Source of the DNA: a virus
Virus record (IMG/VR): IMGVR_UViG_3300043410_001024
Coordinates: 35,682 to 99,681 of that record
DNA length: 64,000 nucleotides
Strand: one strand, 5' to 3'
The translations under genes and the position numbers were made by a program. Position 1 is the first letter of the stretch. Each line of letters opens with the position of its first letter. Positions 16,501-47,346 of the stretch are shown piece after piece. The notes below the pieces were generated by a model. It ran no database searches. It saw nothing but the letters and a program-made list of their open reading frames with translations, and was not told the DNA's origin.

Positions 16501-19500
16501 TTACCACCATTTTCAGCTAGGTAACCAATATGTCCGTAGTATGAAAATACCGATACCAATTCAGTCAATGCATTCGTACCTGTACACCACACACCGATAC
16601 CATCACTTATAATTTGTGTAAAATCATTAGCAACAATTGAACGATTTCCACCGTTATGCAAAGTACCGTCAATTTTTAATCCAGTACAAGCAGTACCAAA
16701 AGTGGTTACATTTTGAATATATGGACTGCGAGACGTAATCCAAGCACGCGAATCTGCGGTACCCCATCCTGGGTCTAAACTAACATAAGCACCAGCGGTT
16801 GGACGTTGTGTTCCATATGCATTAGCAGTTCCTAAAGTTCCAGATAATCCTTGTACAGTTAAGTTACGAATACCAGTTGCATTACGCACATAGAACATAT
16901 CTTCTAATACTGATGTTTGTACGCTCCGTCTATAATAACGAGCCGCCAATAATGTTCTATAGTTTCCAGTATAAACTAGATCGTATTTCATTGCGTTAAC
17001 TAATTCTCTAACGTCACGCGCACAAGCGGTGGAATCATATGATAATTTTATAGTAAACGACATTCCAGAGGTTGCTGACCATGTCAACGCTGTACCACCA
17101 GAGGTTGCCGCAACAGTGATAACATTAGCTGCCGAGGTTTTAACATAGTATACAGTTCCGACCACGATACCTGATGCGCCAACGGTTCCGCTAAACACAA
17201 CTGGCATACCGACCGCAAAGTTAGTTGAACTTGCAACGGTAATATTACCATTAGTCGCGGTTGCTGACACGGTTGTGCTGTATGTATAATTTGTATACGC
17301 AACAGCTTCTTGAGCCAAGAATTCTTTATTTGCTTCTAATACTTCAACCGCGTCATAGTATGCTTGTGTTGCGGTTGGTGTGACAGTACCAGTTAAAGAT
17401 GGTGCTGAACCAGAACTATTAATGTAATAGTTAATATAATCTTTATAATTAGTAAATAACGCAACAGCTGCCGTACCCACAGTTGAATTACTTGCTGGGC
17501 GGGTGGTAACTGGTGTTAACGCATTTCCAGAGGTTGGGGTCACTGTTAAATTTTGTACCAAATTTGAGATAATAGCACTTAATCTGGTTACTGCGGCTAA
17601 ACTATATGTTGTATCAGTTGTTGCAATTGCTGTACTTTTTGGTCTAATATTTGATGAACGTAATTCGTCACCAACTAACGCGGTGTTAGCAGGTACAATA
17701 ATTGGCAATGTTTCATAGTAGATACCAGTTTTTACAAAAATTGTATAAGTTGTATTAACAACCGCTGGAATATTAGTATTAACACCTGCAGTAATTGCAT
17801 CGGTGATAACTTTAACTAAGTTTGTTACTAATGTGGTAACACCAGATTCCAATGTTTTTGTCGAATCACTAACACGAGTTACAGTTGCTTGATATGTTGT
17901 ACCAGGTGCAGTGTTTGCAATAACGGCATTAATTACTGATACCATTTGATTGTATCCAGCAACGTCTTGTGTTTTTTGGTTAGTCAACTGTGTATATGTT
18001 CCACCAACATAAGCTTGGGCGGCGGCCACTGAACGAGCATTACCACCGTGTGATAAGTCGTAAACTAATGCATCGATTACATAACCAATATCTCGTTCAC
18101 AAGTTGCTTGAACGTAAGAGAATCCTGCAAATGGTGCGATACTATTTGTAACTTGATAGTTAATCCATGCGATTACTTCTTTTTGGATATAACTTCTGTT
18201 TCTTGCCAGTAAATAAGAACCATTTGGATTTAATGCCCCTCTTTCAACTTGTTCGGTTGCATAACGTACAGTTAACCAAGGACGATCTAGGGTAACACCA
18301 TAATCTGGTGCTGGGTTATTTACACCGGCGGGACTAACATAATATACTTGGTCAATAACACCAAAGTAGCTCCACGATGGAACTAATGATGACGAAACTT
18401 TTAAAATTTGTCCAGCGGCACCAACAGCTAATCTTGCTGGTCCAGATTGACTCATATAAGGAATATCACCAGTGGTGGTTAACACAGAGGTTGATGAACC
18501 AGCTGATAATACGTTCCAATATGTACCAGTTGAATCGTTATCTGGTCTGTTTATAGTAGCACCGGTATGCGCCAAAATACAAATATAAGAGTTTGCACCA
18601 AATGATACTGAGTCGCCAGCAACATATCCAGTCGAGGTTGCCCAAGTTGCAGCATACCCAGTCGCGGTAATAGTTGCAATTGCACTACCAGAAATTGTGG
18701 CAATTGTAATTAAGATATCGTTAAATGGACTTAACCCACCAACTTGTGTACCTAAAATTTTAATAGTGGTCGATGCGCTATAGCCAGTACCGGGTGCATT
18801 CAAGGTAACTGAATACGATGTACCGACAGTGCTTACGTTAAATGTGGCACTGTTACCTGTTGCTGTTACGTTAGTTCCAGCCACAGCGGTATATGATTTA
18901 TTAACGTTTGCCCATTTAATACCAGAATTCAATCGTGACCAATATGTTAAATTAGGAGGTGTATTACCTGAACTTGATGTATGGTCTAAAACGGCAACAT
19001 AAGTGTATCCACCTAGTCTTGTAACATTACCAACTTGATAAGATTGTGCGGCTGCCCAATCACCAATAAAGTTAAATCCAGTGGTAAATAATCCCCAGTT
19101 CGAGGTGCTTGTAGACGGAATTGCGTTGCTGTTTATTGTTTTACTAATATAAGAATACCCGCCATACCCAACGATGTCACCTGGTTGATAAGTTGTAGCA
19201 CTCGACCATGTATTCTCGTAAGTCAACCCTTCGATAAATCTTGCCCAGTTTGCCTCAATAAATGATGCACTTGACGTATGATAGGTTGTACAAATCCAAA
19301 CATCTGCGCCAAAATTAACTAAGTCATTAGCTTTATATCTAACAGAGCTACCACTCCATTGACCTAAGTAATCAAACCCTTTGTGGTATACATCCCAGTA
19401 CCCAATATTAGTTTCTAATCCCAATGTTGCGGTTGCAGCTGAAACGTGATTGGTGTTACAAACGTATACAATACCCCCATATTTTACTACTTCATTTACT

Positions 19501-19901
19501 CTGTATTTTGTTGACGTTGTCCACGTTGATTGCCATTTAAATCCGGTGGCATATACATCCCAACTACTTGCATTGGCGTCTAAACCTAATGCGGTGGTTG
19601 CAGCTGATGTATGTGTTGATGTACAAATATATAATTTTCCACCATATTTCACTACATCATTTAATCGATAGTATGTATTAATAGTCCAATCTGACATCCA
19701 TGCAGTACCATCAGATACCTGGTTCCATCGTGTTGGAACGTTACTAATATCTGTAGTAAAATCTGCAGAGCTGGTATGCCCAACGATACATACGTATGTT
19801 TTACCACCATTTCTAACAATATCGTCTTTTAAATATGCGGTTGAAGCTGCCCAAGCGCCCTTCCATATAAAACGTATTCTACCTAATTTAAATTCAGCCA
19901 T
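13503..19901 (-). CDS. Giant modular tail fibre A, 2132 aa
   Basis: Residues 1-470 hold about seven repeats of the form W...W..ST.Y..ND.V.YGG..YVC...H.S, like carbohydrate-binding CBM5/12 modules. One repeat is split by a ~65-residue insertion (~347-414). Residues ~525-970 hold helical segments with CERDIGYVIDALVYDL and CARDVRELVNAMKYDL. Residues ~1000-1235 are a beta-helix-like core (IRNLTVQGLSGTLGTAN, FSYYGHIGYLAENGGKIRAT). Residues ~1415-1775 are propeller-like repeats with STNGGTSWTAGG. Residues ~1940-2132 form a conserved C-terminal domain (RLTGHDFLNIGTGN, FFTSTDQDGNFNVGN). It is a clear paralogue of the 2128-aa gene upstream. Sugar binding is inferred from the modules. Confidence 0.85.
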   Translation of the reverse strand: MAEFKLGRIRFIWKGAWAASTAYLKDDIVRNGGKTYVCIVGHTSSADFTTDISNVPTRWNQVSDGTAWMSDWTINTYYRLNDVVKYGGKLYICTSTHTSAATTALGLDANASSWDVYATGFKWQSTWTTSTKYRVNEVVKYGGIVYVCNTNHVSAATATLGLETNIGYWDVYHKGFDYLGQWSGSSVRYKANDLVNFGADVWICTTYHTSSASFIEANWARFIEGLTYENTWSSATTYQPGDIVGYGGYSYISKTINSNAIPSTSTSNWGLFTTGFNFIGDWAAAQSYQVGNVTRLGGYTYVAVLDHTSSSGNTPPNLTYWSRLNSGIKWANVNKSYTAVAGTNVTATGNSATFNVSTVGTSYSVTLNAPGTGYSASTTIKILGTQVGGLSPFNDILITIATISGSAIATITATGYAATWATSTGYVAGDSVSFGANSYICILAHTGATINRPDNDSTGTYWNVLSAGSSTSVLTTTGDIPYMSQSGPARLAVGAAGQILKVSSSLVPSWSYFGVIDQVYYVSPAGVNNPAPDYGVTLDRPWLTVRYATEQVERGALNPNGSYLLARNRSYIQKEVIAWINYQVTNSIAPFAGFSYVQATCERDIGYVIDALVYDLSHGGNARSVAAAQAYVGGTYTQLTNQKTQDVAGYNQMVSVINAVIANTAPGTTYQATVTRVSDSTKTLESGVTTLVTNLVKVITDAITAGVNTNIPAVVNTTYTIFVKTGIYYETLPIIVPANTALVGDELRSSNIRPKSTAIATTDTTYSLAAVTRLSAIISNLVQNLTVTPTSGNALTPVTTRPASNSTVGTAAVALFTNYKDYINYYINSSGSAPSLTGTVTPTATQAYYDAVEVLEANKEFLAQEAVAYTNYTYSTTVSATATNGNITVASSTNFAVGMPVVFSGTVGASGIVVGTVYYVKTSAANVITVAATSGGTALTWSATSGMSFTIKLSYDSTACARDVRELVNAMKYDLVYTGNYRTLLAARYYRRSVQTSVLEDMFYVRNATGIRNLTVQGLSGTLGTANAYGTQRPTAGAYVSLDPGWGTADSRAWITSRSPYIQNVTTFGTACTGLKIDGTLHNGGNRSIVANDFTQIISDGIGVWCTGTNALTELVSVFSYYGHIGYLAENGGKIRATNGNSSYGTYGTVAEGVDSSETALTATVNNRSSQAIISNVVTNAVDKIYRVEYLNAGTGYNTATYSFVGTGYGVTTVGNEFRDNAVYETRLLTNGANYVTTSNTGQAGNTTQITIAATDSAISSAYTGMRIQLNGGAGAGQSGYIVSYNSGSKIALVAKESFPDMTATATTASSDLITVASTSTLTANMPIYFGAALANISANTLYYVKTISSTTQFSISTIAAGTVFDISSDTSSQTVTVHAAGWDHAVSGTSIASALDVTTTYTIEPRIKFSAPAYSATATTITSNAWSSAAYGDINGTYAAVGVTGGAGSSATFTVVRTGVAYAVTLVSGGTGYAIGNTLTIAGTSLGGTATNNITITVTNVVSGTGVINNFTYSGVGAGGKYVAVSETSGTATLVSSDGITWTAGGALTSSAIWQDIKYGVVSGVGTWIARSGNITSYSTNGGTSWTAGGAFTTGTSHAFGSGNGIFVGVAYAGTTNISTNGGVSWTAGGALPVVSANWIAPAYGAGIWVTMALSSTYAAYSTNDGATWTATTISVANWSTVTYGNGRFVAVAPERSAYSFDGITWYDSRHPDSAYKLGYGQGIFAGINYTGAVTSFQTSEDGVFWTSRTIPSSTNSVIVFGNPNNIPRWVLLPQSSTTGYYLNIGTTTRGRVKVANGAISEFRIIEPGSSYGSTPTLTITDPNATTAFTYTVRTGTGVLANPTFTNRGTQYASSTATVTGNGYADMYQIGSYINVSGLTSQPIAGSNVVFAGNSTVYKVVAITNYLSSGGGIAPYNATIQVSPAMTTALAPTHTTAATMRIKYSQVRLTGHDFLNIGTGNIANTNYPGTPNLAVDSTKQTVQFGGGRVFFTSTDQDGNFNVGNLFSVQQSTGVATLNADAFNIAGLNQLTIGSVTLGGTSATITSFSTDPYFTLNSDSIVPTQKAIKSYINSQIGGGGSSLNVNTLTAGTVFVSGNTISTTTGVQINATSKFNFIGGVDGSPLSLSYFLV

Positions 19902-19951: not shown

Positions 19952-22900
19952 TTACGTCCAGCTTTGCTTAAAATAATTCATTGCTAACATGGTACCAGTA
20001 ACACCGTTTTTGAAATTCATTTTATTGTTAATCTTAACGGCACCAGAGGTAGTTGAACCAATTTTATATGGTCCAATTTGAACAGTACCTGCGGTAAGAA
20101 CTGATGTTTGTGCGTTAGCGCCGCCAGCACTAATCGCTCTAGCAACATATGTTTTAATCGCACGTTCAGTTGGAACAATACTATCACTATTTGCAACAAA
20201 ATAGGAATCAGTTGAAAATTGGGAAATTGATACTTGGTTTACACCAACTTGTACTCCACCTAATGATAAAGATGTTATTCCATTTAAGTTAAATAAATCA
20301 GCTGAAACAGTAACAATACCAGTTGCCTGTTGTACACCAAACAATCCACCAACATTAAAGTTACCATCTTGGTCAGTTGAGGTTACGAATACTCGACCTA
20401 GGTTATTTTCTTGAACTTGCTTAAATGATGCGGCGGTTGTAACATCAACATTTGGATAATTAGTGGTTGTTTTATTACCAGTACCAATTAATAAAAAGTC
20501 ATGACCAGTTAATCTTACTTGGCTGTATTTCTGTCTAATAGATACCGATGTACCGTGAACCGGTGTTAATGCACGATCAATAGCTGGGCTAATCTGAAGT
20601 GTGTATGATGAGAATATATCAGTAGGTGGGGTGAAATTCTTGGTATATCTTGCAAAATTTGATATTCTCAAATTATCCATATAACCAACAAATCCTAAAC
20701 TTGTACCACCGACTCTATCAAGTTTTAATGAGGTGGTTGATAATGCCCCCATACTTCCATATTCTATACCGTTTACAAACACACGAATCGTATTACCATA
20801 TTTAACAACAGCATAATGCGCCCATTGGTTGATGGTATCCGGTATTGTAAACATACCAGTAACATCAGCTAATTGTACCCGCCAAGTTGTACTATTTCCA
20901 TACCATCCGATAGCTTCTGAACCAGCAACTTGGGTAACCATAGTATAACTACCGCCAGCCACAGCTGTTCTTTTTAACCACACCTCCCAAGTAAAATCAC
21001 TAGAAATAGTAATTTGTGTAAATGCAAAATTGCCACCAATCGGTGGGAAATATAAAGATCCCGAACCAGTGTATTTTTCGGCATTACTAACAGTCACTCG
21101 ATCAACAATATTACTCATTGATACTTGCGATAATGAATGATCAAGTAAATCATCGCCAGTTAAAAATAGCACAACATTACTAAAATATGGGTCAGGGGGT
21201 GTTGCCGACACGCTAACGACTTTATATTTTGTTGAATCATTAGCAACCACTAAACTTGAACCCAAACTAGGTTGATAAGTTAGATTACTAACGGTTAAGT
21301 ATTTTGATGTTTGATTTATGTCCGCATACCCACTTCCACCGATAATTTTACAAGTGGTGGTCGATGTTTGATATTTGGACCCACGCGAGATAAACGACGG
21401 GTTGCCTAAAACACCGTTACCCGTGCGACAAGTTAGCACCGCTGCGGTTGTTGCATTTGGATCTGTAATTGTTACCACTGCTGAACCAGCTGTATATCCT
21501 TGCATATAAACTGATGCAACTGTTTGAGATACATTAACCGTGTAACTATTCCCAGCTATACCGGTTGCGGCAGCAGTTTGACTGATATTAATGGTATATC
21601 TTATTCCAGAAATAATTGTCGAAGTTTGGGTAACTGATGCACTTACAGTCCAAGTACTGTTAATACCAGCCCCACTAATATTTGAAACTATATACGTTCC
21701 AGTTGGGATAGCACCGCCGGTGAGTGTCATACCTGCATATATAACCCCGGACGTCATTGCTGATACTGTAAGTGTGGTACCAGATATAGAACCTGTAAAT
21801 ATAGCTGAATCAGAACCAGTAATTGTAGAACCAGACACAATCCCGTTTCCAGATAGTACAAGTCCAGTTGTAATGATTCCACTAGTAATATTTGTAATAG
21901 TTAAACTAAAATTAGATATGAAACCAACGAAAGTTGCACTATTCTGAGCTGTTATTGATGTATTTGCTGAAATATTACCATACGCACCACCCAATAACAT
22001 TCCAACAAGCGGATTGGTTAACGAGCTAACCGATGTTACTGATAACGTTGTTCCGGTAATACTTCCTGTAAATTGTGATATTGACGGATCAGATAGATAT
22101 CCACTACCAGGATTCCATAGTTTAATACCACCAATCTTTCCTGATGCGGTAATTACTCTACCAACAGCTGGGGTTCCCAACGTAATAGCTTGGGTATTAC
22201 CAGTCGTATCAATAACAATGGCGGTTGGTACATTTGAAATAGAACCAATGGCGACATTATTCCATAGGTTATTTGGTAATGTTTGTAATACCCATACAAT
22301 ACCGTCCGTACTGGTTGCTGAATTAACTGAATTAGATATAGCAAAGAACATACCGTGATTATAGGTGATATTCGTCCATGCTGCACTAATAGGCAATGTT
22401 GACGCAACCCATGTAATTCCATCTAATGAGTATACAGCATTGGTTCCACTATTTGCGATTGCAACAAATCTACCGTTACCATATATTAAACTTGCCCAAG
22501 TTGCGGTCGTTGGTAATGTTACTGTGTCCCATGTTATTTCAGTTGCCGAATATGAAACTTGGTTTGTATTCCCAGATGCGAATGAAACATATATACCAGC
22601 ACCATACGCAATAGGACCGCCAGCAACGGATGGTGAACCCAACGCGGTCCATGTTATTCCATTAGTCGATGTAAGCAATTCAGTGGTACTGTTGGTTGAT
22701 GAATATCCTAGTGACTGAATATACGCGGATGCAGATGAACCTATTTCAAGCTGTACACCCCAGAAATATATACCAGATACACCATCTCCTAAAAATCCAT
22801 AATTACCGTTTGACAGATATAATGCAATATAAGTGGCTGTGACATTTAACGTAAAGGTAAAAGAGCATCTATACCAACCATTATCAAGTGGCGTTACCGA

Positions 22901-25900
22901 ATAAGAAAGCGGTGTTCCTTCACCAGGATTAAAGTCCATCGTTGCTGTTAACGACGATAAATTAAAATCAGCAACAACCGAACCATTAACACTCAATCTA
23001 AAACGTTTTGATGCATAATCATCACTTTTTACAAATACCGATGCGGTATATGGGACGTTATCAGTAATAGAATAGTATCCAGATTGAATGTAGTGAGTAG
23101 ATGTAACTGCGGTAGCAACAACTTTATCAGCGGTCATATTACCATCAGGTGCGATAGCAGCATTTGAGACAACCGTGGTCTGTGATAGGGTTGGCCATCT
23201 AGTGGCGTTGGCCAAATCCTCAGATCTTCCTGTTATATTAGTTCTGGTTGCATTAAAACTGACAAATGCAACTTTAGATCCTGCAGCAATAATTGGCGTG
23301 TTTGAACCCGACGGCCGCAACGTTCCACTGGTCCATACCATCCCATCCGTTGAATATCCGTATACATTTCCAGAATTATTGATGGCAACGAATGTGTTAG
23401 ATGCACCCGCAAATGCGACCGTTGGCGAATTGAATCCCACTGTTCCAGTCCCAGTTGCCCACGAACTACCAGTGGTTGAGTATGCCATAACCCCAGAAGC
23501 GATTCCGCCAACCGTGACAAATTTACCATTACCATATGCAATTGCCGAGGTATTAGCAGCAGAACTAGTTGCGGTTAATGTAATTGGTGGTGTTGAGAAA
23601 GTAACACGCGGTTCGATACTGTATACAGTTGTTGAATCCAATACGGATGCAATAGTTGTTCCAGGAATAACATGATCCCATCCAGCAATACCAGTGCTTT
23701 CTTTATAAATAGTTGCAACTTTACTAACAGAATTATATGATTGAATATATCCATATTGTCCCACCCCAGTACCGCTGGTTATAATAATTCTCATACCAAC
23801 GTAATTCGCTGAGGTTCTTTGATCATTGGATGCAATAGTAATAGTTGTTGATGTACCGCTTTGTGCTTGGTTCCCACCAGTAAGGTACCCATTACCACCT
23901 GCACTATATGTGGAACCAGTAACAAATGCTTCGAATATTGCATTATCTCTAAATTCATCAAACAGAACCGATACACCAGTACCAGCACCGCTAAATGTTG
24001 CATATGGCTGCGATTGTAATGAATATCCTTGTCCAGCATTTGAATATTCTAACACTAAAATTTTATCTTGTGCCTGTCCTGCAAAGGATGACGCAACTTG
24101 TGCATTTTGGGTTCTATTGTTAACCGCACCAATTAATGGGCTTTCATTTGGGTCATATCCTTCAGCAACTGTACCGTAAGTACCATAAGAACTATTACCG
24201 TTAGTTGCACGAATTTTCCCACCATTTTCAGACAAGTAACCAATGTGGCCATAATACGAAAATACGGATACCAATTCGGTCAAGGCTCCACTACCGGTAC
24301 ACCAAACACCAATCCCATCACTTAAAATTTGTGTAAAATCGTTTGCAACAACTGAACGATTACCACCATTGTGTAATGTACTATCGACTTTTAAACCAAC
24401 ACATCCTGACCCAAATGTAGATACATTTTGAACATATGGTGATTTCGTGGTAATCCAAACTGATGAATCAGTCGGTCCTGTACCTGGGTCTAAACTAACA
24501 TATGCACCAGCGGTTGGGCGGCTTGTGCCATATGAATTGGCTGCACCTAATGTTCCTGATAAACCAGATAAGGTCATATTTCTAATTCCAGAACCATTTC
24601 TAACATAGAACATATTTGATGTTGTGTATCCACTTGCTGGCTGGACTACTGTGCTTCTAATTTCATCGCCAACTAATTCTAATCCAGCAACCACCGTAAT
24701 TGGTAATATTTCACTGTAAGTACCAGTTTTAATAAACAAGGTTGCACTTGGTACATTTAAACTTGCAATATAATCACACGCATATTTTATTGTTTTAAAC
24801 GGTTGGTCTAAAGTGGTTCCTTTTGTTGTTGCATCGGTACCAGTTGGTGCCACGTAAAATACATTAGAGGTTACACCAAATTTTTCCCAATATGGCAATG
24901 TATTTGATTTATAAGTGGTTCCATCCGCACCTATATGAACTGGAATATATGTACTTTGGTATGTTATCGTGTCACCAGTTGCCGTCATTGGTTCATTAAC
25001 CGCACCACTAATCAATAAATTCCAATATGTGTTAGTCGTATCGGCAATCGGGTTATTACTAGAACTTGAGGTGTGCTTTAAAATACATCTATAGGTCGAT
25101 GTATTATACGAGACTAAATCACCAAGTACATATGTATTATTAGCGAGCCACGCGCCATGCCATTCATTACCGGATATAACTAAAGTCCAAAAGCCAGTAT
25201 TAGTTGTTTCTGTATTTAAATTATCTAAAATACAAACATATAGCTGTCCATTACGTCTTACCACATCACCAACATAATACTGAATGGATGATACCCAATC
25301 CCCTTTAATTCTAAACCCGGTGGTTAATAATGTCCAGTCAGATGGGCTAGCACTCGGAACTGCATCAGTATTATGAGTTTTACTAATATAATTGTAGCCG
25401 CCGTAACCAACGATATCACCGGGAGCATAATTGTATGTTATAATTTCAATAAACTGTATTTGTATCAATGATGCTATAGTTGTTGCATTAATAGTGTTTA
25501 ACCTAATATCAATACCTTCTTCTATTATAAATTTATAGATAGTACCATTGAATTGTACAATATCATTATGTCTATACCATACACTTGGTAACCACTCACT
25601 AGGAGAAAGTGAGGTAGAAGAAAGCCAGGCGTCTCTAAATTTTACACCTGGTACATATAACGTCCAGTTAATTGTTTGAAATGTTGCAATAGAGGTGTGG
25701 TCGGTTGTACATAACCAAATATCAGCACCGTACTTTACAATGTCTTTAGCTTTATAAACAGTTGATGCAGTCCAAGTGTATTTGTAATCTATACCTTGAG
25801 TAACAATTTCCCATCCCCAACTTGGAAACCCAATTAGTGGGTCTGCCTGATGCGTAACTATACATCTATAAATAGTTCCGCCATATCTTGTAATATCGCC

Positions 25901-26338
25901 TTTTTGGTATGCAGTAGTAACCAACCATTCGCCTCTCCAATTATCAGTTTTAAGATAAACTGACCATTTTGATGAATCGGTGGTTAATCCTGAGAGATCA
26001 TCAATATGTGCGGTAGAAGTATGCGAGGTAAGACAAATGTACAAGAAACCATTATATCTAACTATATCACCTTGGTTATAAAACGTCGAAAAATTCCAAC
26101 TACTTTTCCATGCATACCCATCAAACCACAAAGTCCAATATGGTTGGGCGGTATCTGGTTCTGTCAAAGTATTAATATGATTCAAATCTGTGTAAAAATT
26201 TGGGCTAGCGGTGTGACCTACTAAACAAACGTATGATTTCCCACCATAACGAACGATATCGTCTTTTATATATAATGTACTAGCAGTCCAGTCACCTTTC
26301 CAGGTAAATCTTATTCTATCTAATTTAAATTCAGCCAT
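19952..26338 (-). CDS. Giant modular tail fibre B, 2128 aa
   Basis: The same plan as fibre A: N-terminal CBM5/12-like repeats (WKGDWTASTLYIKDDIVRYG and about seven more, to ~470), a beta-helix-like core (~570-780) and a conserved C-terminal domain (~1925-2128, RLTGHDFLLIGTGN, VFVTSTDQDGNFNVGG). It lacks the helical block of fibre A but has two domains not seen there: a carbohydrate-binding-like insert (~1030-1215, beginning NITGRSEDLANATRWP and ending GVQLEIGSSASAYI) placed inside the propeller-like repeats, and a LamG/concanavalin-type domain (~1725-1900, with FTWEVWLKR and VNGIEYGSMG). Fibre B probably has different ligand specificity. Start ATG 26338. Confidence 0.85.
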   Translation of the reverse strand: MAEFKLDRIRFTWKGDWTASTLYIKDDIVRYGGKSYVCLVGHTASPNFYTDLNHINTLTEPDTAQPYWTLWFDGYAWKSSWNFSTFYNQGDIVRYNGFLYICLTSHTSTAHIDDLSGLTTDSSKWSVYLKTDNWRGEWLVTTAYQKGDITRYGGTIYRCIVTHQADPLIGFPSWGWEIVTQGIDYKYTWTASTVYKAKDIVKYGADIWLCTTDHTSIATFQTINWTLYVPGVKFRDAWLSSTSLSPSEWLPSVWYRHNDIVQFNGTIYKFIIEEGIDIRLNTINATTIASLIQIQFIEIITYNYAPGDIVGYGGYNYISKTHNTDAVPSASPSDWTLLTTGFRIKGDWVSSIQYYVGDVVRRNGQLYVCILDNLNTETTNTGFWTLVISGNEWHGAWLANNTYVLGDLVSYNTSTYRCILKHTSSSSNNPIADTTNTYWNLLISGAVNEPMTATGDTITYQSTYIPVHIGADGTTYKSNTLPYWEKFGVTSNVFYVAPTGTDATTKGTTLDQPFKTIKYACDYIASLNVPSATLFIKTGTYSEILPITVVAGLELVGDEIRSTVVQPASGYTTSNMFYVRNGSGIRNMTLSGLSGTLGAANSYGTSRPTAGAYVSLDPGTGPTDSSVWITTKSPYVQNVSTFGSGCVGLKVDSTLHNGGNRSVVANDFTQILSDGIGVWCTGSGALTELVSVFSYYGHIGYLSENGGKIRATNGNSSYGTYGTVAEGYDPNESPLIGAVNNRTQNAQVASSFAGQAQDKILVLEYSNAGQGYSLQSQPYATFSGAGTGVSVLFDEFRDNAIFEAFVTGSTYSAGGNGYLTGGNQAQSGTSTTITIASNDQRTSANYVGMRIIITSGTGVGQYGYIQSYNSVSKVATIYKESTGIAGWDHVIPGTTIASVLDSTTVYSIEPRVTFSTPPITLTATSSAANTSAIAYGNGKFVTVGGIASGVMAYSTTGSSWATGTGTVGFNSPTVAFAGASNTFVAINNSGNVYGYSTDGMVWTSGTLRPSGSNTPIIAAGSKVAFVSFNATRTNITGRSEDLANATRWPTLSQTTVVSNAAIAPDGNMTADKVVATAVTSTHYIQSGYYSITDNVPYTASVFVKSDDYASKRFRLSVNGSVVADFNLSSLTATMDFNPGEGTPLSYSVTPLDNGWYRCSFTFTLNVTATYIALYLSNGNYGFLGDGVSGIYFWGVQLEIGSSASAYIQSLGYSSTNSTTELLTSTNGITWTALGSPSVAGGPIAYGAGIYVSFASGNTNQVSYSATEITWDTVTLPTTATWASLIYGNGRFVAIANSGTNAVYSLDGITWVASTLPISAAWTNITYNHGMFFAISNSVNSATSTDGIVWVLQTLPNNLWNNVAIGSISNVPTAIVIDTTGNTQAITLGTPAVGRVITASGKIGGIKLWNPGSGYLSDPSISQFTGSITGTTLSVTSVSSLTNPLVGMLLGGAYGNISANTSITAQNSATFVGFISNFSLTITNITSGIITTGLVLSGNGIVSGSTITGSDSAIFTGSISGTTLTVSAMTSGVIYAGMTLTGGAIPTGTYIVSNISGAGINSTWTVSASVTQTSTIISGIRYTINISQTAAATGIAGNSYTVNVSQTVASVYMQGYTAGSAVVTITDPNATTAAVLTCRTGNGVLGNPSFISRGSKYQTSTTTCKIIGGSGYADINQTSKYLTVSNLTYQPSLGSSLVVANDSTKYKVVSVSATPPDPYFSNVVLFLTGDDLLDHSLSQVSMSNIVDRVTVSNAEKYTGSGSLYFPPIGGNFAFTQITISSDFTWEVWLKRTAVAGGSYTMVTQVAGSEAIGWYGNSTTWRVQLADVTGMFTIPDTINQWAHYAVVKYGNTIRVFVNGIEYGSMGALSTTSLKLDRVGGTSLGFVGYMDNLRISNFARYTKNFTPPTDIFSSYTLQISPAIDRALTPVHGTSVSIRQKYSQVRLTGHDFLLIGTGNKTTTNYPNVDVTTAASFKQVQENNLGRVFVTSTDQDGNFNVGGLFGVQQATGIVTVSADLFNLNGITSLSLGGVQVGVNQVSISQFSTDSYFVANSDSIVPTERAIKTYVARAISAGGANAQTSVLTAGTVQIGPYKIGSTTSGAVKINNKMNFKNGVTGTMLAMNYFKQSWT

Positions 26339-36760: not shown

Positions 36761-37387
36761 TTATGATAGATTGCTTATTATTCCTAATAAGCTTTCTTTG
36801 AGATATTTTTGCGCCTGCGGGTCACCCTGAACCTCTTTAGCTAACAACATTGATTTATAACCATTTCTGGTATTCAATAAATGTTCGTAAATTGGTGTAG
36901 GATAAGCACCAGGTGCAGATGGTTGTGCTACCATATCTACCGTGATGATTTCAAAATCTGAAACTTCATTTGAACCATCGTTGCTGACATTTCCAGAACC
37001 CCTCGACGACACACCTAATTTAACGCCGCTTTCCAGCATTGTTTTAATTAGTTGCCCCATTGGTGTGGGAAGTATTTTCAACTTCCCATATCCATTTGGT
37101 CCGTCCATCCACATTTTAGTTATCATATGTGATACACGGTCTAGGTTAATTTTAAGATCATCTGGGTGATCCACTTCTCCAAGAACTGAATAACCATTTT
37201 GAATCTGATCGTTAAGGGTCTTAACAGCCTTGCTAATCTCACTTACAGGATAAACACGTTGGTTGGCATTACGGATTCCACCTTGAATGCAGATACCCGT
37301 CATGTGCAACTCTTTGCCTTCTCTGTCATCAGATTCCAGTATCATTTCTGCTTCACTGAAACTGAGGTTTTCTCGGAGATATAACAT
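36761..37387 (-). CDS. 21: Prohead core protease gp21
   Basis: 208-residue serine protease that matures the T4-type prohead. Residues 29-45 have TGICIQGGIRNANQRVYP, then GEVDHPDD with the likely catalytic His74, and GVKLGVSSRGSG with the likely nucleophile Ser127 or Ser128. The motif VDMVAQPSAPGAY follows. ILE18-S19 is a probable self-cleavage site. It is encoded between the acidic core protein and gp22, the usual T4 order. Start ATG 37387, four bases from the previous stop. Confidence 0.95.
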   Translation of the reverse strand: MLYLRENLSFSEAEMILESDDREGKELHMTGICIQGGIRNANQRVYPVSEISKAVKTLNDQIQNGYSVLGEVDHPDDLKINLDRVSHMITKMWMDGPNGYGKLKILPTPMGQLIKTMLESGVKLGVSSRGSGNVSNDGSNEVSDFEIITVDMVAQPSAPGAYPTPIYEHLLNTRNGYKSMLLAKEVQGDPQAQKYLKESLLGIISNLS

Positions 37388-37390
37388 ATA

Positions 37391-38329
37391 TTATTTTTTC
37401 CCGCCAATTAAGCTTTTGTGGGTTGTATTAGCTTTTTGTGGTTTGCCTGTTCCAGCACCAGCTAAACTACCTTCGCCTGAACCTTTACGTTCTGTGCCAT
37501 GGCCTTTTTTAACTGAATGCAATTTTGTTGCTGATTTAGCACCAGGAACGTTTACATTTCCACCTGTTTGTGGTGATGTTTTAGGGGCCAATAAGCCACC
37601 TTGTGTTCCACCAGTTGTTACTTCAGATGAACGACCAATTACTTTACCACCCATGTTGTTAGGCATGTTGTCGATAACACTTTTGTTATTCACGCCGTTG
37701 TCACCATGTTTTGGTAATGCAACTTTATTGATGTATTCCATGAATTGGTTGAATTCTTGATCGCCTTCGTCCATTTCTTGGTCATCATTGTGGATATAGT
37801 GGTGAATTTCTTTAACTTCTGAATCATCATCAGCCATATCAGCGCCGAAATCATCTTCGCCACCCATATCATCCATACCACCAAATTCATCACCTTCTTC
37901 GCCTTCTTCGCCTTCTTCACCGCCGAACATATCGTCGTGTTCTGGTTCACTTTCTTCACCAGCTAAAAGTTCATCGAATTCAGCTTTTAATTCTTCTAAT
38001 GCATCTTCAAGGTCCATAACACGATCTTCTAAGTCGCCTTCGCCACCCATATCGTCGTCATCATCTTCACCACCGAATGCATCATCATCTTCTGCGTCGT
38101 CTGTTTCATCATCTTCACCGCCGAATGCATCATCATCTTCTGCGTCATCGGCGGGTTCTGATTCTTCTTCTTCCTCTTCCTCAGCGGGTGGGAAATCAGA
38201 TTCTAATAATTCTTCGTAAATTTCACGTGATTTTCCAACAACGATGTTGTGGAAAATGTCTTTTGCTGTTTCTTGATCTTCGTTGATCAAAGCTTCAAGC
38301 ATTGCTTCAAATTTTGCTCTATCAGTCAT
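37391..38329 (-). CDS. Acidic prohead core protein, gp67/gp68-like position
   Basis: 312 residues. The N-terminal ~50 residues are a helical domain (MTDRAKFEAMLEALINEDQE, then SREIYEELLESD) like those of small prohead core proteins; LLE43-S44 is a gp21-type cleavage site. Residues ~48-190 are extremely acidic, made of DDAEDDDAFGGE-type repeats, and the C-terminal 100 residues are basic and Gly-rich (KSATKLHSVKKGHGTERKGS). T4 encodes gp67 and gp68 between portal and gp21, both core proteins that are cut up on maturation; position and acidity suggest the same role. Low-complexity composition makes homology hard to judge. A late promoter precedes it. Confidence 0.65.
   Translation of the reverse strand: MTDRAKFEAMLEALINEDQETAKDIFHNIVVGKSREIYEELLESDFPPAEEEEEEESEPADDAEDDDAFGGEDDETDDAEDDDAFGGEDDDDDMGGEGDLEDRVMDLEDALEELKAEFDELLAGEESEPEHDDMFGGEEGEEGEEGDEFGGMDDMGGEDDFGADMADDDSEVKEIHHYIHNDDQEMDEGDQEFNQFMEYINKVALPKHGDNGVNNKSVIDNMPNNMGGKVIGRSSEVTTGGTQGGLLAPKTSPQTGGNVNVPGAKSATKLHSVKKGHGTERKGSGEGSLAGAGTGKPQKANTTHKSLIGGKK
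38058..38153 (-). repeat. Two tandem 48-bp repeats in the acidic core gene
   Basis: Units beginning at 38058 and 38106 (TCATCATCTTCACC...) encode two copies of a 16-residue unit containing DDAEDDDAFGGE. The repeat keeps the frame and can change length without loss of charge. Confidence 0.8.
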
Positions 38330-38424
38330 GTTAGTCTCCTGTGATATAAAAATGTCAAGGCTGTAATATATTTACATTTATTTAAAAAAAAGGTGCTATA
38401 ATAGCTATAAAAACGCCAATTTTA

Positions 38425-38432
38425 TATTTATC
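38425..38432 (-). promoter_or_regulatory. Late promoter, GATAAATA
   Basis: GATAAATA on the minus strand within the 116-bp gap upstream of the acidic core gene (ATG 38329). The leader would be about 90 nt and contains an 8-base run of T on the minus strand. Confidence 0.6.
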
Positions 38433-38445
38433 ATTTATGTAATAT

Positions 38446-38685
38446 TTAAGCTGCTGGTGGTGGCGGTGCTGCATACATAGTATGAATAAATGCCAACTCA
38501 CGTTCTTGGTCTAAAATGTGTGCTTCACTATTTTTACGTAGTTCGTTTAATTGGCCTAATGTTAACCGTGTCTTTCTTGTATCTGACCGATGCATAGTTT
38601 CGGTATCACGTGATGGGCTATAACGTAAGTCATTAGCCTGTTCTCTTGTATCCGGGTCAATGTAAAATAATTCTCTTAAAATCAT
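38446..38685 (-). CDS. Small conserved T4-like head-region protein, 79 aa
   Basis: Starts MILRELFYIDPDTREQ at ATG 38685. A longer frame extending upstream into the portal gene is not needed, because MxLRELFYxDPxT is, from memory, the conserved beginning of this family. Further residues: DTRKTRLTLGQLNELRKNSEAH, FIHTMYAAPPPPAA. It lies between portal and core genes, where T4 has gp67 and gp68. The function is not known to me. It has no Shine-Dalgarno, and a late promoter ends five bases before the ATG, so a leaderless transcript is possible. The last 9 codons of the portal gene lie just upstream. Confidence 0.7.
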   Translation of the reverse strand: MILRELFYIDPDTREQANDLRYSPSRDTETMHRSDTRKTRLTLGQLNELRKNSEAHILDQERELAFIHTMYAAPPPPAA

Positions 38686-38689
38686 AATG

Positions 38690-38697
38690 TATTTATA
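38690..38697 (-). promoter_or_regulatory. Late promoter, TATAAATA, abutting a start codon
   Basis: Perfect late octamer on the minus strand, located at the end of the portal gene. Only CATT separates it from the ATG of the 79-aa gene. With usual T4 spacing the transcript would start at about 38684, on the start codon itself. Confidence 0.65.
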
Positions 38698-40432
38698 CTG
38701 TCGGTGGGGTTGCGGGTGCAGATGCAACAGGCGGAACCTGTCCAGTATCCCCTAGCGACTGTAAATCTCCTTCCATATCATCTGGTGCAGTTAAGTCACC
38801 AGCCATTCCTAAATCACCCTCAATACCAGCCGCCGATAATCCAGCACTACGCAATTCACCAGCCGCATCAGTGGTTGTTGGTTGACCTTTTCCATTTTCT
38901 TCAGCCCATAATTTTTCATTATCAGCCAATTCTTCCTCTGTAAGACCAAGGAATCTTTTTAATGCAAATCTATTACTAATAAATGGTATTTGTTGAATTG
39001 TATTAAATGTGTTGATTCGTTCAGTATCCAATGCACTTTGTCTAGTACTTGCAAAGTTTGTTGGTGGATTGAAATTTAATTCAAATAAATTTGAATCAAT
39101 ATTAACACCACGAGTATTCATATACATTTTGAACTCAGTATCAAAAACCTCGGTCATCAACCATTGTAATCTCTCACAGTATTTATTAAATCTTAGTTCT
39201 TGAATGTATGCAGTTCCGACACGGCCATCATTGAAACTAGCTTGACTATCATCAGCACCAGTTGGTAAGTAACTACTTGGGATACGTAAACCACGGAATA
39301 ATTTATTGGTGAAATATTTCAAATCATCAATTTCACCTAAATTAGTACCGCCAGGCAAAGTATCAACTTTACTACCACGACCATCAGCGGTCATAGGGAA
39401 AAAGTAATCCTCATTAATACTCAAAGGGTTATATGCACTATCAATTACATTTTGCCCACCACCAGTTTGACTAGGTATTCTGCGTTGGTGAATTTCGTTT
39501 TTTACACGCTCAACGAATGCCATAGCCATATGTGATGGCATGTTACCGGTGTCAATATGGAAAATACGGCGTTCTGGCGCACGTTGAATACGATAAATTA
39601 AGATAGCATCTTCTAATAATTCTTTTTGCTTATAGACTTTATAGATATTTTCTAGTAAACTATTACCCAATGGGTAATTATTATCTAATCCTTCGGATAA
39701 AGATATATGCACAATGTGTTCAGCATCAATTGCATATTCAGTTTCAGTTAGCCCAAATCTTGAGCCAGAACTTGCACTAGAAACGCCACCAGAATTACCA
39801 TTAGAACCTTGCGCACCCATGTAACCAGCACCAGAGCCAATCCCACCACCGACTTGGCGAGCATTAATATTTGGTGTGATTTGTGTAACAACAAGTTTTT
39901 CAAAATTAGGTGCTAAATCTTTAATGATATACTGTAATGGTTTCTTTCCATCGCTTTCATTTACGATAATCTTAACAACTTTACTATTGTCAACCCAACA
40001 CCATTTCTGAGTTTCTGGGTCACGAATAAAGAAAGCATCGCCGTATTTGTATACATTCCTAACAATTCTAAAAATTCTGGTATCAAATTGTTGTAACTTA
40101 TTCCATTGTTGTAAGTATTCACTTAAAATTCTAACTTCTGAATTTGTGGCTTGACTACGCCATTTAACAGCAAATGGACTTTTACCATCTTTTAATTTTT
40201 GTGTACAAAATTCAGCTAAGATATCTAACGCAGCATTAACCTCTGGGTCGCTATCCATTACCTCATATTGTTGGTATCGTTCAACACGATTTGGACTACC
40301 AGAATAGACATCTGGTAAGTAACTAGAATAATTCTTTCTAGCTGGGCCAGCCTTTGACGTACCACTAGCCCCATTGATAGGACTTAGGTCGTTTGTTACT
40401 GGGACTGGGGTGAAATATTTCTTCCATGACAT
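38693..40432 (-). CDS. 20: Portal vertex protein gp20
   Basis: 579 residues. Portal dodecamer through which DNA enters and leaves the head. Recognised by RVERYQQYEVMDSDPEVNAALDILAEFCTQ near residue 50, FRIVRNVYKYGDAFF, HIVHISLSEGLDNNYPLGNSLLE, APERRIFHIDTGNMP and the C-terminal region FNDGRVGTAYIQELRFNKYCERLQ, all typical of T4-like portals. Length close to T4 gp20 (524). The C-terminal tail is acidic and Pro/Ala-rich. RBS AAGGAATTTAAAAT before ATG 40432. Confidence 0.96.
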   Translation of the reverse strand: MSWKKYFTPVPVTNDLSPINGASGTSKAGPARKNYSSYLPDVYSGSPNRVERYQQYEVMDSDPEVNAALDILAEFCTQKLKDGKSPFAVKWRSQATNSEVRILSEYLQQWNKLQQFDTRIFRIVRNVYKYGDAFFIRDPETQKWCWVDNSKVVKIIVNESDGKKPLQYIIKDLAPNFEKLVVTQITPNINARQVGGGIGSGAGYMGAQGSNGNSGGVSSASSGSRFGLTETEYAIDAEHIVHISLSEGLDNNYPLGNSLLENIYKVYKQKELLEDAILIYRIQRAPERRIFHIDTGNMPSHMAMAFVERVKNEIHQRRIPSQTGGGQNVIDSAYNPLSINEDYFFPMTADGRGSKVDTLPGGTNLGEIDDLKYFTNKLFRGLRIPSSYLPTGADDSQASFNDGRVGTAYIQELRFNKYCERLQWLMTEVFDTEFKMYMNTRGVNIDSNLFELNFNPPTNFASTRQSALDTERINTFNTIQQIPFISNRFALKRFLGLTEEELADNEKLWAEENGKGQPTTTDAAGELRSAGLSAAGIEGDLGMAGDLTAPDDMEGDLQSLGDTGQVPPVASAPATPPTV

Positions 40433-43217: not shown

Positions 43218-44045
43218 ATGTCGCAAAACCCATTGCAATCGTTTTTTAGACAACCAAAAATCTATGTTTCTTTACCAAGTAAAGGAATTTACAACAAGTT
43301 AGGTTCATTTCAAGGTGATCCAACTAATGTTCCAATTTTTAGTATGACTGGGGCTGATGAAATATTAATGAAAACTCCGGATGCGTTATATTCTGGGGAG
43401 GCAACTGTAAAATTATTTGAAAGTTGTTGCCCAGCTATAAAAGATGGGTGGGAAATTTCTTCATTAGATTCAGAACTATTATTAACAGCGATTAGAATAG
43501 CAACAAATGGTAATAAATTAGCGTTGGTACACCAATGCCCACATTGCGGTGAATTAAATGATTACGATGCAGATTTAAGTATAATCGTTGATCACTATGC
43601 AAGCTGCAAATATGAAAATAAGATTGTTATGAAAGATTTCACTATAAAATTACAGCCATTAACTTATAGAGAAAATAATGATTTTTCTCAACGGAATTTT
43701 AAAATTCAGCAAAGATTGAGAAGTATTGAAAATCTTACGGATGAAGATAGAAAGAAAGAAATAATTAACAATGTTTATAAAGAATTGAGTATTATTCAAA
43801 ACGAAATTTATACAGCATGCATTGAATCAATTGATATTGGTACCGCTATGGTAACTGAGAAAGAATTTATTTTAGAATGGATTCAAAATAGTGATAAATC
43901 TATAATCGATGCTATTAAAGTTATCTTTAATAAAAATAAAGAACTATGGAAAGTACCAACTGTAAAAGTAAAATGTTTTGATTGTAACAAAGATTCTGAA
44001 CTTTTGATAGAATTGGATCAGTCAAATTTTTTCGGGAACGCCTGA
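43218..44045 (+). CDS. 26: Baseplate hub assembly protein gp26-like
   Basis: 275 residues. The beginning (LPSKGIYNKLGSF, PIFSMTGADEILMKTPDALYSG) and the CPHCG motif at ~105-109 with a second CFDC near the C terminus match the gp26/T4 baseplate hub family, where the cysteines may bind zinc. T4 gp26 is needed for hub assembly. It has a perfect late promoter and a good RBS (TAGGAGTAATTC). Its last codons hold a slippery heptamer (44024-44030), and a second frame continues for 78 codons without a usual start, so a gp26-gp51-like fusion may be made by -1 frameshift, as for tail chaperones of lambda-like phages. Confidence 0.85.
   Translation: MSQNPLQSFFRQPKIYVSLPSKGIYNKLGSFQGDPTNVPIFSMTGADEILMKTPDALYSGEATVKLFESCCPAIKDGWEISSLDSELLLTAIRIATNGNKLALVHQCPHCGELNDYDADLSIIVDHYASCKYENKIVMKDFTIKLQPLTYRENNDFSQRNFKIQQRLRSIENLTDEDRKKEIINNVYKELSIIQNEIYTACIESIDIGTAMVTEKEFILEWIQNSDKSIIDAIKVIFNKNKELWKVPTVKVKCFDCNKDSELLIELDQSNFFGNA
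44024..44030 (+). other. Putative -1 programmed ribosomal frameshift site
   Basis: In the gp26 frame the sequence is TCA AAT TTT TTC, i.e. the heptamer A-AAT-TTT, which fits the X-XXY-YYZ rule for a -1 slip. It lies 12 nt before the gp26 stop. The -1 frame then reads FRERLIRLSTEG and stays open to 44266. No ATG, GTG or TTG occurs in that frame between the slip and 44141. Confidence 0.6.
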
Positions 44046-44266
44046 TTAGATTATCCACAGAGGGTATAGCTGAATATCTAGTTAGGCTAGACGACGAGGT
44101 AAAACAATTTAAGCTAGAATTAGCTAAAATTTGTTGGTTTATGAGAGGTGGTGTTTCTTATGCGGATCTGCTCGATCGTTTTAGTGTTGACGATCGAGCA
44201 GCAATGTATGAAGTAATAAAAGAAAATATCGATAATACTAAAGCGGCAAAGATGCCACTGCTCTAA
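44030..44266 (+). CDS. gp51-like / tail-chaperone frame reached by frameshift from gp26
   Basis: Open -1 frame of 78 residues: FRERLIRLSTEGIAEYLV, then KICWFMRGGVSYADLLDRFS and a C terminus of ENIDNTKAAKMPLL. In T4, gene 26 is followed by gene 51, a hub assembly factor; the position suggests an equivalent, though the sequence identity is uncertain. There is no conventional start codon in frame upstream of ATG 44141, which would remove half the frame; CTG 44042 or ATT 44045 would be the alternatives. Its TAA (44264-44266) overlaps the stop of the convergent 299-aa gene. The fusion protein would be about 349 residues. Real coding is likely from the codon pattern and exact termination. Confidence 0.6.
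   Translation, partial: FRERLIRLSTEGIAEYLVRLDDEVKQFKLELAKICWFMRGGVSYADLLDRFSVDDRAAMYEVIKENIDNTKAAKMPLL
44168..44201 (+). other. 12-bp perfect hairpin inside the gp51-like frame
   Basis: CTGCTCGATCGT (44168-44179) and ACGATCGAGCAG (44190-44201) are perfect inverted repeats with a 10-nt loop. It lies about 140 nt after the slip site, too far to be a usual stimulator. It might attenuate convergent transcription or block antisense RNA. Confidence 0.7.
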
Positions 44267-45183: not shown

Positions 45184-45191
45184 TATTTATG
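45184..45191 (-). promoter_or_regulatory. Late promoter, CATAAATA
   Basis: On the minus strand, 21 bp before ATG 45162 and overlapping the stop of the upstream 91-aa gene. One base from the consensus. Confidence 0.6.
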
Positions 45192-45462
45192 ATTTAATTT
45201 TAGAACGTCTTTTTAGTTCTTCTTTAAACCCGCATACAATATTCATATTAGATGAGTTAGAACTAAACCACTCCAAATAATTACTAGGAATATTTTTATA
45301 TTTTGTGCCTTTGAATTTACCGAAATTCATGATAGTATTTTCAAAATCATATTCGATATGATTTTTATCAAATGAACTAATTGATCTCTCTGAATGTCTT
45401 AATCTAATGCCTTTATTATAATCGCTATCTTTTCTTTTTAAATAATATGCCTCAAGTGTCAT
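45187..45462 (-). CDS. Small DUF3820-like protein, 91 aa
   Basis: Residues ~46-68 read NFGKFKGTKYKNIPSNYLEWF, which fits the FGKYKGxxxxxIPxxYLxWF motif of the DUF3820 family, found alone or next to DnaQ-type exonuclease domains. No exonuclease residues are present. The N terminus is basic (LKRKDSDYNKGIRLRHSERS). Function unknown. Its RBS (TAGGACAT) is inside a 9-bp hairpin that also contains a late promoter, so it may be translated from late transcripts only. Start ATG 45462. Confidence 0.65.
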   Translation of the reverse strand: MTLEAYYLKRKDSDYNKGIRLRHSERSISSFDKNHIEYDFENTIMNFGKFKGTKYKNIPSNYLEWFSSNSSNMNIVCGFKEELKRRSKIKS

Positions 45463-46155: not shown

Positions 46156-46176
46156 GATGGGTTATTCCAACCCATC
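46156..46176 (-). terminator. Terminator overlapping the stop of the homing endonuclease
   Basis: GATGGGTT (46156-46163), loop ATTCC, AACCCATC (46169-46176), a perfect 8-bp stem followed on the minus strand by ATTTTAGG. The stop codon (46162-46164) lies in the stem. The T tract is short, so it may be leaky. Confidence 0.65.
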
Positions 46177-47346
46177 TGTTATATCTTTTATTATTGCTGT
46201 ATAATACTCAATATTTTTAGAAATTCTCCATACCGCTTGGTATGATAATTGTGTTTTTAATGAAATTTCTTTAAGTGTCAAGTTATTGTTTATATCTTGG
46301 ATGATAGATGTATACAGTGGTAAATCATTTGAAATAGTTTTCTTTGTTTTGTCATACCCCCGTTTGATATTTGATTGCCTAGTTGCATTTTTGTGTGCAT
46401 CACTAAGTGATTTATTCAGTTCGGAACGTATTTTTGAACATTTAGCTTTTCTGTCTGGGTTTTCATCCCAGTTTTTTTTCATTGCTGCAACATGGTCGGA
46501 TGATAATGTTTTGCCCTTAGTTGCTTTGCTTATATTATCTTTCCAAATTTGTTTTTGTGTTTCATCCATTTTGTAATAACATGGTTTGCCATACATATTA
46601 TTGTTTTCACCAGTATGTTTTCCAGTGTTTATCTTTCTTAATTTTTCTTTTGTTTCAGTGGTGTGTTGAACTTTTTTTGTTTTTCCAGATAAATGTTGTT
46701 GTTTTGTATATTCGCTCAACATTTTTTTTATTTTAGTAGCTCGTTCAATCCCATATAATTCCTCGTATGATTTATTTTTGTTAAATGGTTCTTTACCATA
46801 CATTGGATTATTGTCGCCCCGATGATACGTATCTAACCATTCTTCATAATCTTCACGAGTCATTTTTTTAATCACCGTGGCATCGCCTGTAACAATTTTA
46901 CTAATACTAATTCTAAGTTCATCAGCAGTTTGTGATGGTGGTATAAATTTCACACCCGCTACTGCTCTATTGTAATATTTTTTTGTTATACCATCATCTA
47001 AGAGTTCACGTAATACATTATGTGTTATTTGATATTCCACCTCTGCATAATGCAGAGAACCTTTTGAACTATGTAATGACAGTATATCAAATTTGTAATT
47101 ATCTTTGCCATTGTTAGTAATGGCAAGATTTAGATGCTCTGATGAACCAGTATATGTTTTCCAATTTGATTCGGAAATTACTTTTTTTCTATTCTTTTTA
47201 CCTTTTATGATTTTTCTGGTAGTATTAAAAAATTGTTTTTTTCCAATATATTCCCGCCCAGTATTAATTTCAGTAATTTTGTATATAAAACCAAACCAGT
47301 CATTTGGTTCAAATTCTATGTTAAATCCCCAGTGCCCATAATCCAT
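46162..47346 (-). CDS. GIY-YIG homing endonuclease, free-standing
   Basis: 394 residues. GIY-YIG nuclease domain at residues ~16-140: FGFIYKITEINTGREYIGKKQF contains the F-I-Y and Y-I-G pairs; further on are KGKKNRKKV, ESNWKTYTGSS and an Ala-Glu-Val-Glu at ~122-125, which supplies the metal-binding glutamate. NUMOD3 DNA-binding motifs occur at ~177-186 (GDNNPMYGKE) and ~246-255 (GENNNMYGKP). The C terminus (LTLKEISLKTQLSYQAVWRIS) is a helix-turn-helix. It resembles the T4 Seg enzymes with added DNA-binding modules. No intron core was recognised around it. Its RBS is hidden in a 14-bp hairpin. Likely a mobile invader. Confidence 0.9.
   Translation of the reverse strand: MDYGHWGFNIEFEPNDWFGFIYKITEINTGREYIGKKQFFNTTRKIIKGKKNRKKVISESNWKTYTGSSEHLNLAITNNGKDNYKFDILSLHSSKGSLHYAEVEYQITHNVLRELLDDGITKKYYNRAVAGVKFIPPSQTADELRISISKIVTGDATVIKKMTREDYEEWLDTYHRGDNNPMYGKEPFNKNKSYEELYGIERATKIKKMLSEYTKQQHLSGKTKKVQHTTETKEKLRKINTGKHTGENNNMYGKPCYYKMDETQKQIWKDNISKATKGKTLSSDHVAAMKKNWDENPDRKAKCSKIRSELNKSLSDAHKNATRQSNIKRGYDKTKKTISNDLPLYTSIIQDINNNLTLKEISLKTQLSYQAVWRISKNIEYYTAIIKDITDGLE

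Follow-up and report, generated by a model that had tools for sequence, protein, structure and literature searches.

A conserved T TTT TTC heptamer at the end of a T4-like gp26 gene and its predicted −1 frameshift product

The window, that is, the whole 64,000-nt stretch of DNA analyzed here, is part of the 99.7-kb virus record IMGVR_UViG_3300043410_001024, which is itself a fragment, and the region concerned is T4-like and structural. It carries a gp26-like gene whose product belongs to the PF12322 family (44.2 bits against a cut-off of 24.5, E 2.4e-11), matches phrog_150 (E 4.7e-15), and is overlapped at its 3′ end by an open frame in the −1 register (Table 1). The AlphaFold2 model of the gp26-like protein (mean pLDDT 89.1) has a predicted mixed alpha/beta fold; none of its 123 structure matches reached E ≤ 0.001, and the best VIA-align match, with Z 8.2 across 55 residues, consists of a helical segment. 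The gene diverges from a 903-aa ORF that the earlier note took to be tape-measure-like, a reading that phrog and Pfam profile searches did not bear out, as they returned neither a confident family nor a tape-measure profile match; nor did they return a confident family for the convergent 299-aa ORF. Near the 903-aa ORF lie T4-like portal (PF07230) and prohead protease (PF03420) genes (36761–40432, − strand), and the gene order of phage 121Q, portal, structural protein, divergent gp26, equals that of the window. Elsewhere in the window, a 394-aa ORF (46162–47346, − strand) has a SegE-type GIY-YIG endonuclease domain (PF19835, E 4e-34) and is likely a homing endonuclease within the structural region, and a 91-aa ORF (45187–45462, − strand) matches PF12843 (QSregVF_b, E 1.7e-6), a family named for a quorum-sensing-regulated factor and odd for a phage tail region. 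The neighboring ORFs at 13503–19901 and 19952–26338 (− strand; 2132 and 2128 aa) have N-terminal repeats that are similar by eye in the ORF list and look like a duplicated tail fibre or adhesin gene, and a NUDIX-domain ORF (PF00293; 1660–2142, + strand) stands beside long tail-fibre-like ORFs.

Table 1. Features of the gp26-like locus and its immediate context, in window coordinates
Feature	Position	Strand	Remarks
gp26-like 0-frame gene, short form	43218–44045	+	275 aa, from the ORF list; PF12322 (T4_baseplate) / phrog_150
Conserved slippery heptamer T TTT TTC	44027–44033	+	0-frame codons TTT TTC; −1 codons TTT TTT
Heptamer of the earlier note, A AAT TTT	44024–44030	+	Overlaps the conserved site; itself unconserved
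6-nt spacer, slippery site to stem	44034–44039	+	
Putative stimulatory stem, 5′ arm (12 bp)	44040–44051	+	Includes the gp26 stop TGA, 44043–44045
Putative stimulatory stem, 3′ arm	44076–44087	+	
Inner hairpin in the loop of the main stem	44052–44066	+	44052–44056 pairing with 44062–44066; predicted fold
−1 frame extension	44033–44266	+	77 residues and stop
Predicted fusion protein			gp26 residues 1–272 + 77 = 349 aa; junction peptide ..DQSNFF/RERL.. (slash at the junction)
Predicted window peptides			Fusion DSELLIELDQSNFFR; 0-frame end DSELLIELDQSNFFGNA; counterparts predicted for the relative 121Q: YDPSHFFR (tryptic, fusion) and YDPSHFFE (0-frame end)
Convergent ORF, 299 aa	44263–45162	−	4-base overlap with the end of the extension; context only
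Divergent ORF, 903 aa	40445–43156	−	Adjoins the T4-like portal gene; context only

Relatives of the locus were taken from virus contigs, by patterns that avoid the junction (73 loci, then the best 80 of at least 595), and from named phages. The 80-locus set leans towards S-PM2 because only the best 80 of at least 595 relatives were kept; the heptamer is no part of the patterns by which the virus-contig loci were found. There are 174 loci in which gp26 reaches its stop, or 135 after dereplication; L050, L069, and L072 were dropped because gp26 is cut off, and L074 to L076 were not counted, L074 being IMGVR_UViG_3300047560_001190 over again (already present as L002). The dereplicated loci that bear the site described below comprise 38 jumbo phage, 73 cyanophage-like, and 22 named loci, and for the tests of stems and Shine-Dalgarno (SD)-like motifs two loci with a cut-off extension (L143 and L160) were excluded, leaving 71 cyanophage-like loci.

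The earlier note had proposed slippage on A AAT TTT, and the window letters do hold this heptamer at 44024–44030, in phase and 12 nt before the TGA. A second heptamer, T TTT TTC, overlaps it and begins three bases further on, and this is the one that is conserved. T TTT TTN closes the gp26 frame at the same place and in the same phase in 172 of the 174 loci (133 of the 135 after dereplication), in jumbo phages, cyanophages, and others, with TTTTTTCG in 163 of the 172; it was seen likewise in a 70-locus subset of the relatives, and it is carried also by the uncounted L075 and L076 and by P-SSM4, which lies outside the 174. A heptamer of the XXXTTTT type, as in the earlier note, occurs in just 14 of the 133 dereplicated loci with the T TTT TTN site (jumbo 10/38, cyanophage-like 4/73, named 0/22) because the three bases that precede T TTT TTN vary, and A AAT TTT was rejected as the slip site for this want of conservation. 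A tandem slip at either heptamer gives the identical predicted junction peptide. We assign the slip site to T TTT TTC since it is conserved in place and phase and is absent from other pairs of phenylalanine codons: xxT TTT TTC stands at the site in 126 of the 135 dereplicated loci and at none of the 115 other Phe-Phe pairs in the same genes. As a bare string TTTTTTCG is common enough, with three occurrences in the window against 3.7 expected from shuffles, and the departure from chance lies in where it stands, in its phase, and in its conservation, not in the string itself. A binomial estimate for the conservation gives a log10 P of −90.6, which is overstated because related loci are taken as independent. 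The two loci that lack T TTT TTN are those of Klebsiella phage May (Ackermannviridae, L096, near 2304) and Vibrio phage K471 (L099, near 2172), each of which has a single PF12322 gene and keeps the −1 extension open.

In the window, then, an X XXY YYZ heptamer lies in phase before an open −1 frame. As the earlier note stated, that frame stays open over 78 codons, the slip Phe included (44030–44263), and ends in MPLL, and its first half is free of start codons, ATG, GTG, or TTG occurring after the heptamer only at 44141, 44204, and 44252. Among the relatives, the extension is open in all 131 dereplicated loci in which it is not cut off, and its length, with loci cut by a contig end excluded, is 75–77 codons in jumbo, 57–69 in cyanophage-like, and 56–80 in named dereplicated loci. 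Differences between jumbo extensions fall on codon positions 1, 2, and 3 in proportions of 30, 16, and 53% (63 pairs), compared with 26, 17, and 57% (27 pairs) for gp26 in its own frame, and the −1 frame thus evolves as coding sequence. The mean column identity of 33 aligned jumbo extensions is 59%, and an Arg directly after the slip site is conserved. The window extension is predicted by AlphaFold2 (pLDDT 89.9) to form helices at residues 9–38, 43–49, and 52–72. Its model gave 13 matches in the PDB, none at E ≤ 0.001, and no known tail-chaperone fold is among the structure matches listed for either the gp26 or the extension model.

The site is accompanied by candidate stimulatory elements that differ between lineages. 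In the window, a stem of 12 bp begins 6 nt past the heptamer (MFE −18.9 kcal/mol, z −2.48), within the distance of about 5–9 nt downstream expected of such an element, and the DNA of locus L002, identical to that of the window here, gave p 0.005 in the synonymous-codon control. An offset of 6 nt is the commonest in the jumbo set (19/38), and 31 of the 38 jumbo loci have a stem at p ≤ 0.05, with codon-shuffle and synonymous-codon controls alike, where 1.9 would be expected. Under the synonymous-codon control the cyanophage-like loci pass at this threshold in 41 of 71 cases and the named loci in 11 of 22; no significant simple stem was found in 7 jumbo, 30 cyanophage-like, and 11 named loci, the last being RaK2, 121Q, GAP32, CBB, Munch, SCTP-2, RAS14, KVP40, AS-szw, BUCT608, and Ci1. 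We therefore rejected the stem as a universal element, these counts being for simple stems only. The arms diverge between jumbo subgroups and yet pair (GCCTGATTAGAT with ATCTAGTTAGGC, GGCTTTCGAC with GTCGAAAGCC, and AGGATCTTAAC with GTTAAGATCCT). In an alignment of 39 rows, paired cells make up 70.9% against 59.2% when shuffled, cells changed on both sides number 60 against 33.9, and the covariation score is 0.385 against 0.239, values that none of 500 shuffles reached although the scores are inflated by related rows; the percentage paired and the covariation score peak in the true register. Double changes occur in 10 of the 12 pairs, a number within the range of shuffles (184 of 500 attain it) and exceeded in one slid register, with 11. 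A second subgroup of jumbo loci (10 rows) has its 3′ partner at a greater distance, columns 8–17 pairing with 60–69, and the covariation is weak, with 81.0% of cells paired against 74.8% shuffled and a score reached by 9 of 500 shuffles. An SD-like motif stands upstream of the site in 58 of 71 cyanophage-like loci, against a background of 7.4%, and in 7 of 22 named loci; none was found in the 38 jumbo loci.

The family relationships of the two frames are best read against T4, whose gp26 (E 8.8e-64) and gp51 (E 3.9e-52) both match PF12322, gp51 consisting of this domain and a C-terminal tail of about 48 residues. The earlier note had called the second frame gp51-like, which is right in substance, as T4 gp51 is a gp26 paralogue with a C-terminal extension; for the window lineage itself, the homology of the extension to the gp51 tail is weak (E 7.7e-5, probability 62%, above 100 of 100 column shuffles). 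The window-lineage extension is strongly related to those of the RaK2/121Q type (E 1.7e-20), very weakly to those of cyanophages (probability 8%; none of 100 shuffles as high, though close), and has no phrog match. The cyanophage extensions match T4-type gp51 tails at E 1.3e-11, and the −1 extensions of cyanophages, KVP40, and Cr30 match phrog_634, baseplate hub assembly catalyst. When the two frames are fused in silico, the alignment with T4-type gp51 runs through the junction ungapped. PF12322 copies were counted in the 35 records behind the loci and in the 99.7-kb record of the window, which, fragment as it is, has one. Of the 35, five have two copies, 29 have one, and SCTP-2, in which the site is present, has none over threshold. 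The two-copy phages (T4, RB43, Aeromonas 31, FL15, and phiP4-3) have no site at the end of either gene, and 27 of the 29 one-copy records, P-SSM4 among those checked, have the site, the exceptions being May and K471. From this pattern we conclude that the frameshift probably yields a gp26-like form of 275 aa and a gp51-like form of 349 aa, as lambda makes G and GT. Genes 26 and 51 of T4 are indeed separate, as the earlier note had said, and are divergently transcribed, so that gp51 as a same-strand neighbor was rejected; a −1 extension on T4 gene 26 was likewise rejected, its −1 frame being gene 25.

We propose that T TTT TTC and the stem constitute a functional programmed −1 ribosomal frameshift that makes short and long tail-chaperone forms, which we regard as highly probable on this comparative evidence. 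Specifically, most ribosomes would stop at the end of gp26 (44045), and a fraction, aided by the mRNA stem, would slip back by one base on the heptamer and read 77 further residues, to give a protein in which the gp26 domain is joined to a helical C-terminal domain. T4 and some relatives instead carry a pair of paralogues, of which one is short and the other long and fused. The suggestion of the earlier note that a −1 frameshift may join gp26 to the second frame is strongly supported by the comparison, namely by the site in 172 of 174 loci, the open frame, and the stem.

Other routes to the same observations have to be weighed. That the frame is open by chance next to an A/T-rich repeat and is biologically meaningless is scarcely credible: the count of TTTTTTCG in the window, about equal to that of shuffles, is what chance would give, but conservation, coding pattern, and structure tests are all contrary. 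RNA polymerase might instead stutter on the T run, a minority of mRNAs then carrying the −1 fusion, and this would give the same protein products from a conserved core that is indeed a run of six T, longer in a few loci; however, six T is short for slippage by a bacterial polymerase, and a stem at a spacing of about 6 nt and an upstream SD-like motif are stimulators of ribosomal slippage, so we give transcriptional slippage only a slim chance. It is most improbable, in our estimate, that the second frame is a short gene in its own right, on which ribosomes reinitiate after terminating gp26, whether at an overlapping ATG or at a non-canonical start. Such a gene would fit the ATG found within the first 25 extension codons of 68 of the 71 cyanophage-like loci, the ATG that overlaps the gp26 stop in KVP40, BUCT608, Cr30, phiN3, AF3, and K471, and the annotation in GenBank, where 19 of the 24 named records among the 174 loci list the extension as a CDS of its own (hypothetical or gp51), five leave it unannotated (RaK2, PA5oct, AS-szw, May, and K471), and none joins it at the junction. 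It would account neither for the slip site and the conserved Arg that follows nor for the stem, and it sits poorly with the T4-type phages, which encode the fused long form as one gene, with the window, where the first start codon comes at residue 37 of 77, and with the jumbo loci, of which just 4 of 38 have an ATG in the first 25 codons. The lack of an early start codon to which the earlier note pointed recurs in 26 of the 38 jumbo loci, which have no ATG, GTG, or TTG in these 25 codons. Relatives with a start codon and ribosome-binding site but no heptamer, which by that note would tell against the frameshift, are scarce, as 172 of 174 loci keep the heptamer; of the two that lack it, K471 has the overlapping ATG, and in May the first in-frame ATG is about 35 nt past the stop.

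A further possibility accepts the frameshift and concerns only its product, the long form being a low-copy structural variant of a hub protein and not a chaperone isoform, which we consider rather unlikely. A review of T4 assembly describes gp26 and gp51 both as hub assembly chaperones, reports gp26 also in the T4 hub, and has gp51, the long paralogue, as needed for assembly yet absent from the particle (PMC3004832). The last of these statements argues against a structural variant and the second for it, and as gp26 is also described as a hub component, its role may go beyond that of a chaperone. Gene context likewise points both ways: in the window, RaK2, 121Q, GAP32, and CBB the gene diverges from a large neighbor and does not lie upstream of a recognized tape-measure gene, whereas in Cr30 the gene pair is one small ORF upstream of an annotated tape measure. 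When eight downstream genes were scanned, with ends clipped, S-PM2 alone gave a weak tape-measure match (E 0.003). We infer from the homology to T4 gp26 and gp51, and from the analogy to lambda G and GT, that the short and long forms would be a tail or hub assembly chaperone pair needed in a set ratio.

The proposed frameshift resembles those of lambda G/GT, P2 E/E+E′, and other phage tail chaperones in that the ribosome slips by −1 shortly before the first frame ends, and the P2 slip site is T TTT TTG. The gp26 protein here, at 275 aa and with its predicted mixed alpha/beta fold, is likened to these systems by scheme and differs from them in that no recognized tape-measure gene follows it in the window lineage. 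The tail assembly chaperones of T4-like phages, reportedly identified by Vladimirov, Gautam and Davidson (2022, Virology 566:9–15), are very probably of the same protein family as gp26 here, and the concept is already known for T4-like phages since the two-gene case of T4 was published in that work. Systems of the G/GT type make a majority of a short and a minority of a long form with a common N-terminus (PMC5009743), and a short and a longer form with a common N-terminus are what is predicted for the window. T4 gp51 has the domain and extension collinear with the fusion and shares PF12322 with it, but T4 differs in its separate, divergent genes without a slip site at their ends. In the TAC of phage Adele (Vandenendeviridae/Andersonviridae), too, TAC-N ends in a conserved T-rich slip site and the −1 frame runs on uninterrupted; that system differs in phage family, in its GTTTTT motif, and in the tape measure gene downstream, and the same paper treats poly-T slippery signals as known in T4-like TAC-N genes (PMC12846349). 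Some T4-like phages are described in the PRFect paper as having a short gene and a longer fused gene without frameshifting (PMC10885494). The literature searched yielded no description of the RaK2/121Q-like jumbo lineage, the T4-like concept having surfaced via papers citing the 2022 work, and the jumbo lineage, the exact T TTT TTC site, and the stems may or may not be new relative to it.

We think it likely that jumbo phages, cyanophages, a Pelagibacter phage, and part of the Straboviridae have all retained T TTT TTC while its helpers changed, with an SD-like motif in cyanophages, a divergent, covarying stem in the jumbo lineage, and loss of the site accompanied by a second paralogue in T4 and some relatives. 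This would account for cyanophage gp51 seeming to lack its first 200 residues and perhaps for the reported absence of gp51 from Aeh1, which we take to be a relative of Aeromonas phage AS-szw. In AS-szw (L097) the −1 extension is present at 2199–2369 and unannotated, and in KVP40 the record annotates the short ORF as matching the T4 gp51 C-terminus. Sullivan et al. (2010) reported cyanophage gp51 at about 20% of full length, without the first ~200 residues, and gp51 as missing in Aeh1, and their account of the short gp51 gives no cause (PMC3037559); the frameshift would be a concrete reason for the former, and the latter may be an annotation gap, judging from AS-szw. The finding also bears on the statement of a 2016 recoding review that G-T frameshifting is widespread except in T4 (PMC5009743). 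The proposed frameshift would mean that in large phage groups a core tail-assembly gene is misannotated, its two frames being joined in none of the 24 named records, and the replacement of a frameshift by a pair of paralogues could be studied in these phages as a natural series.
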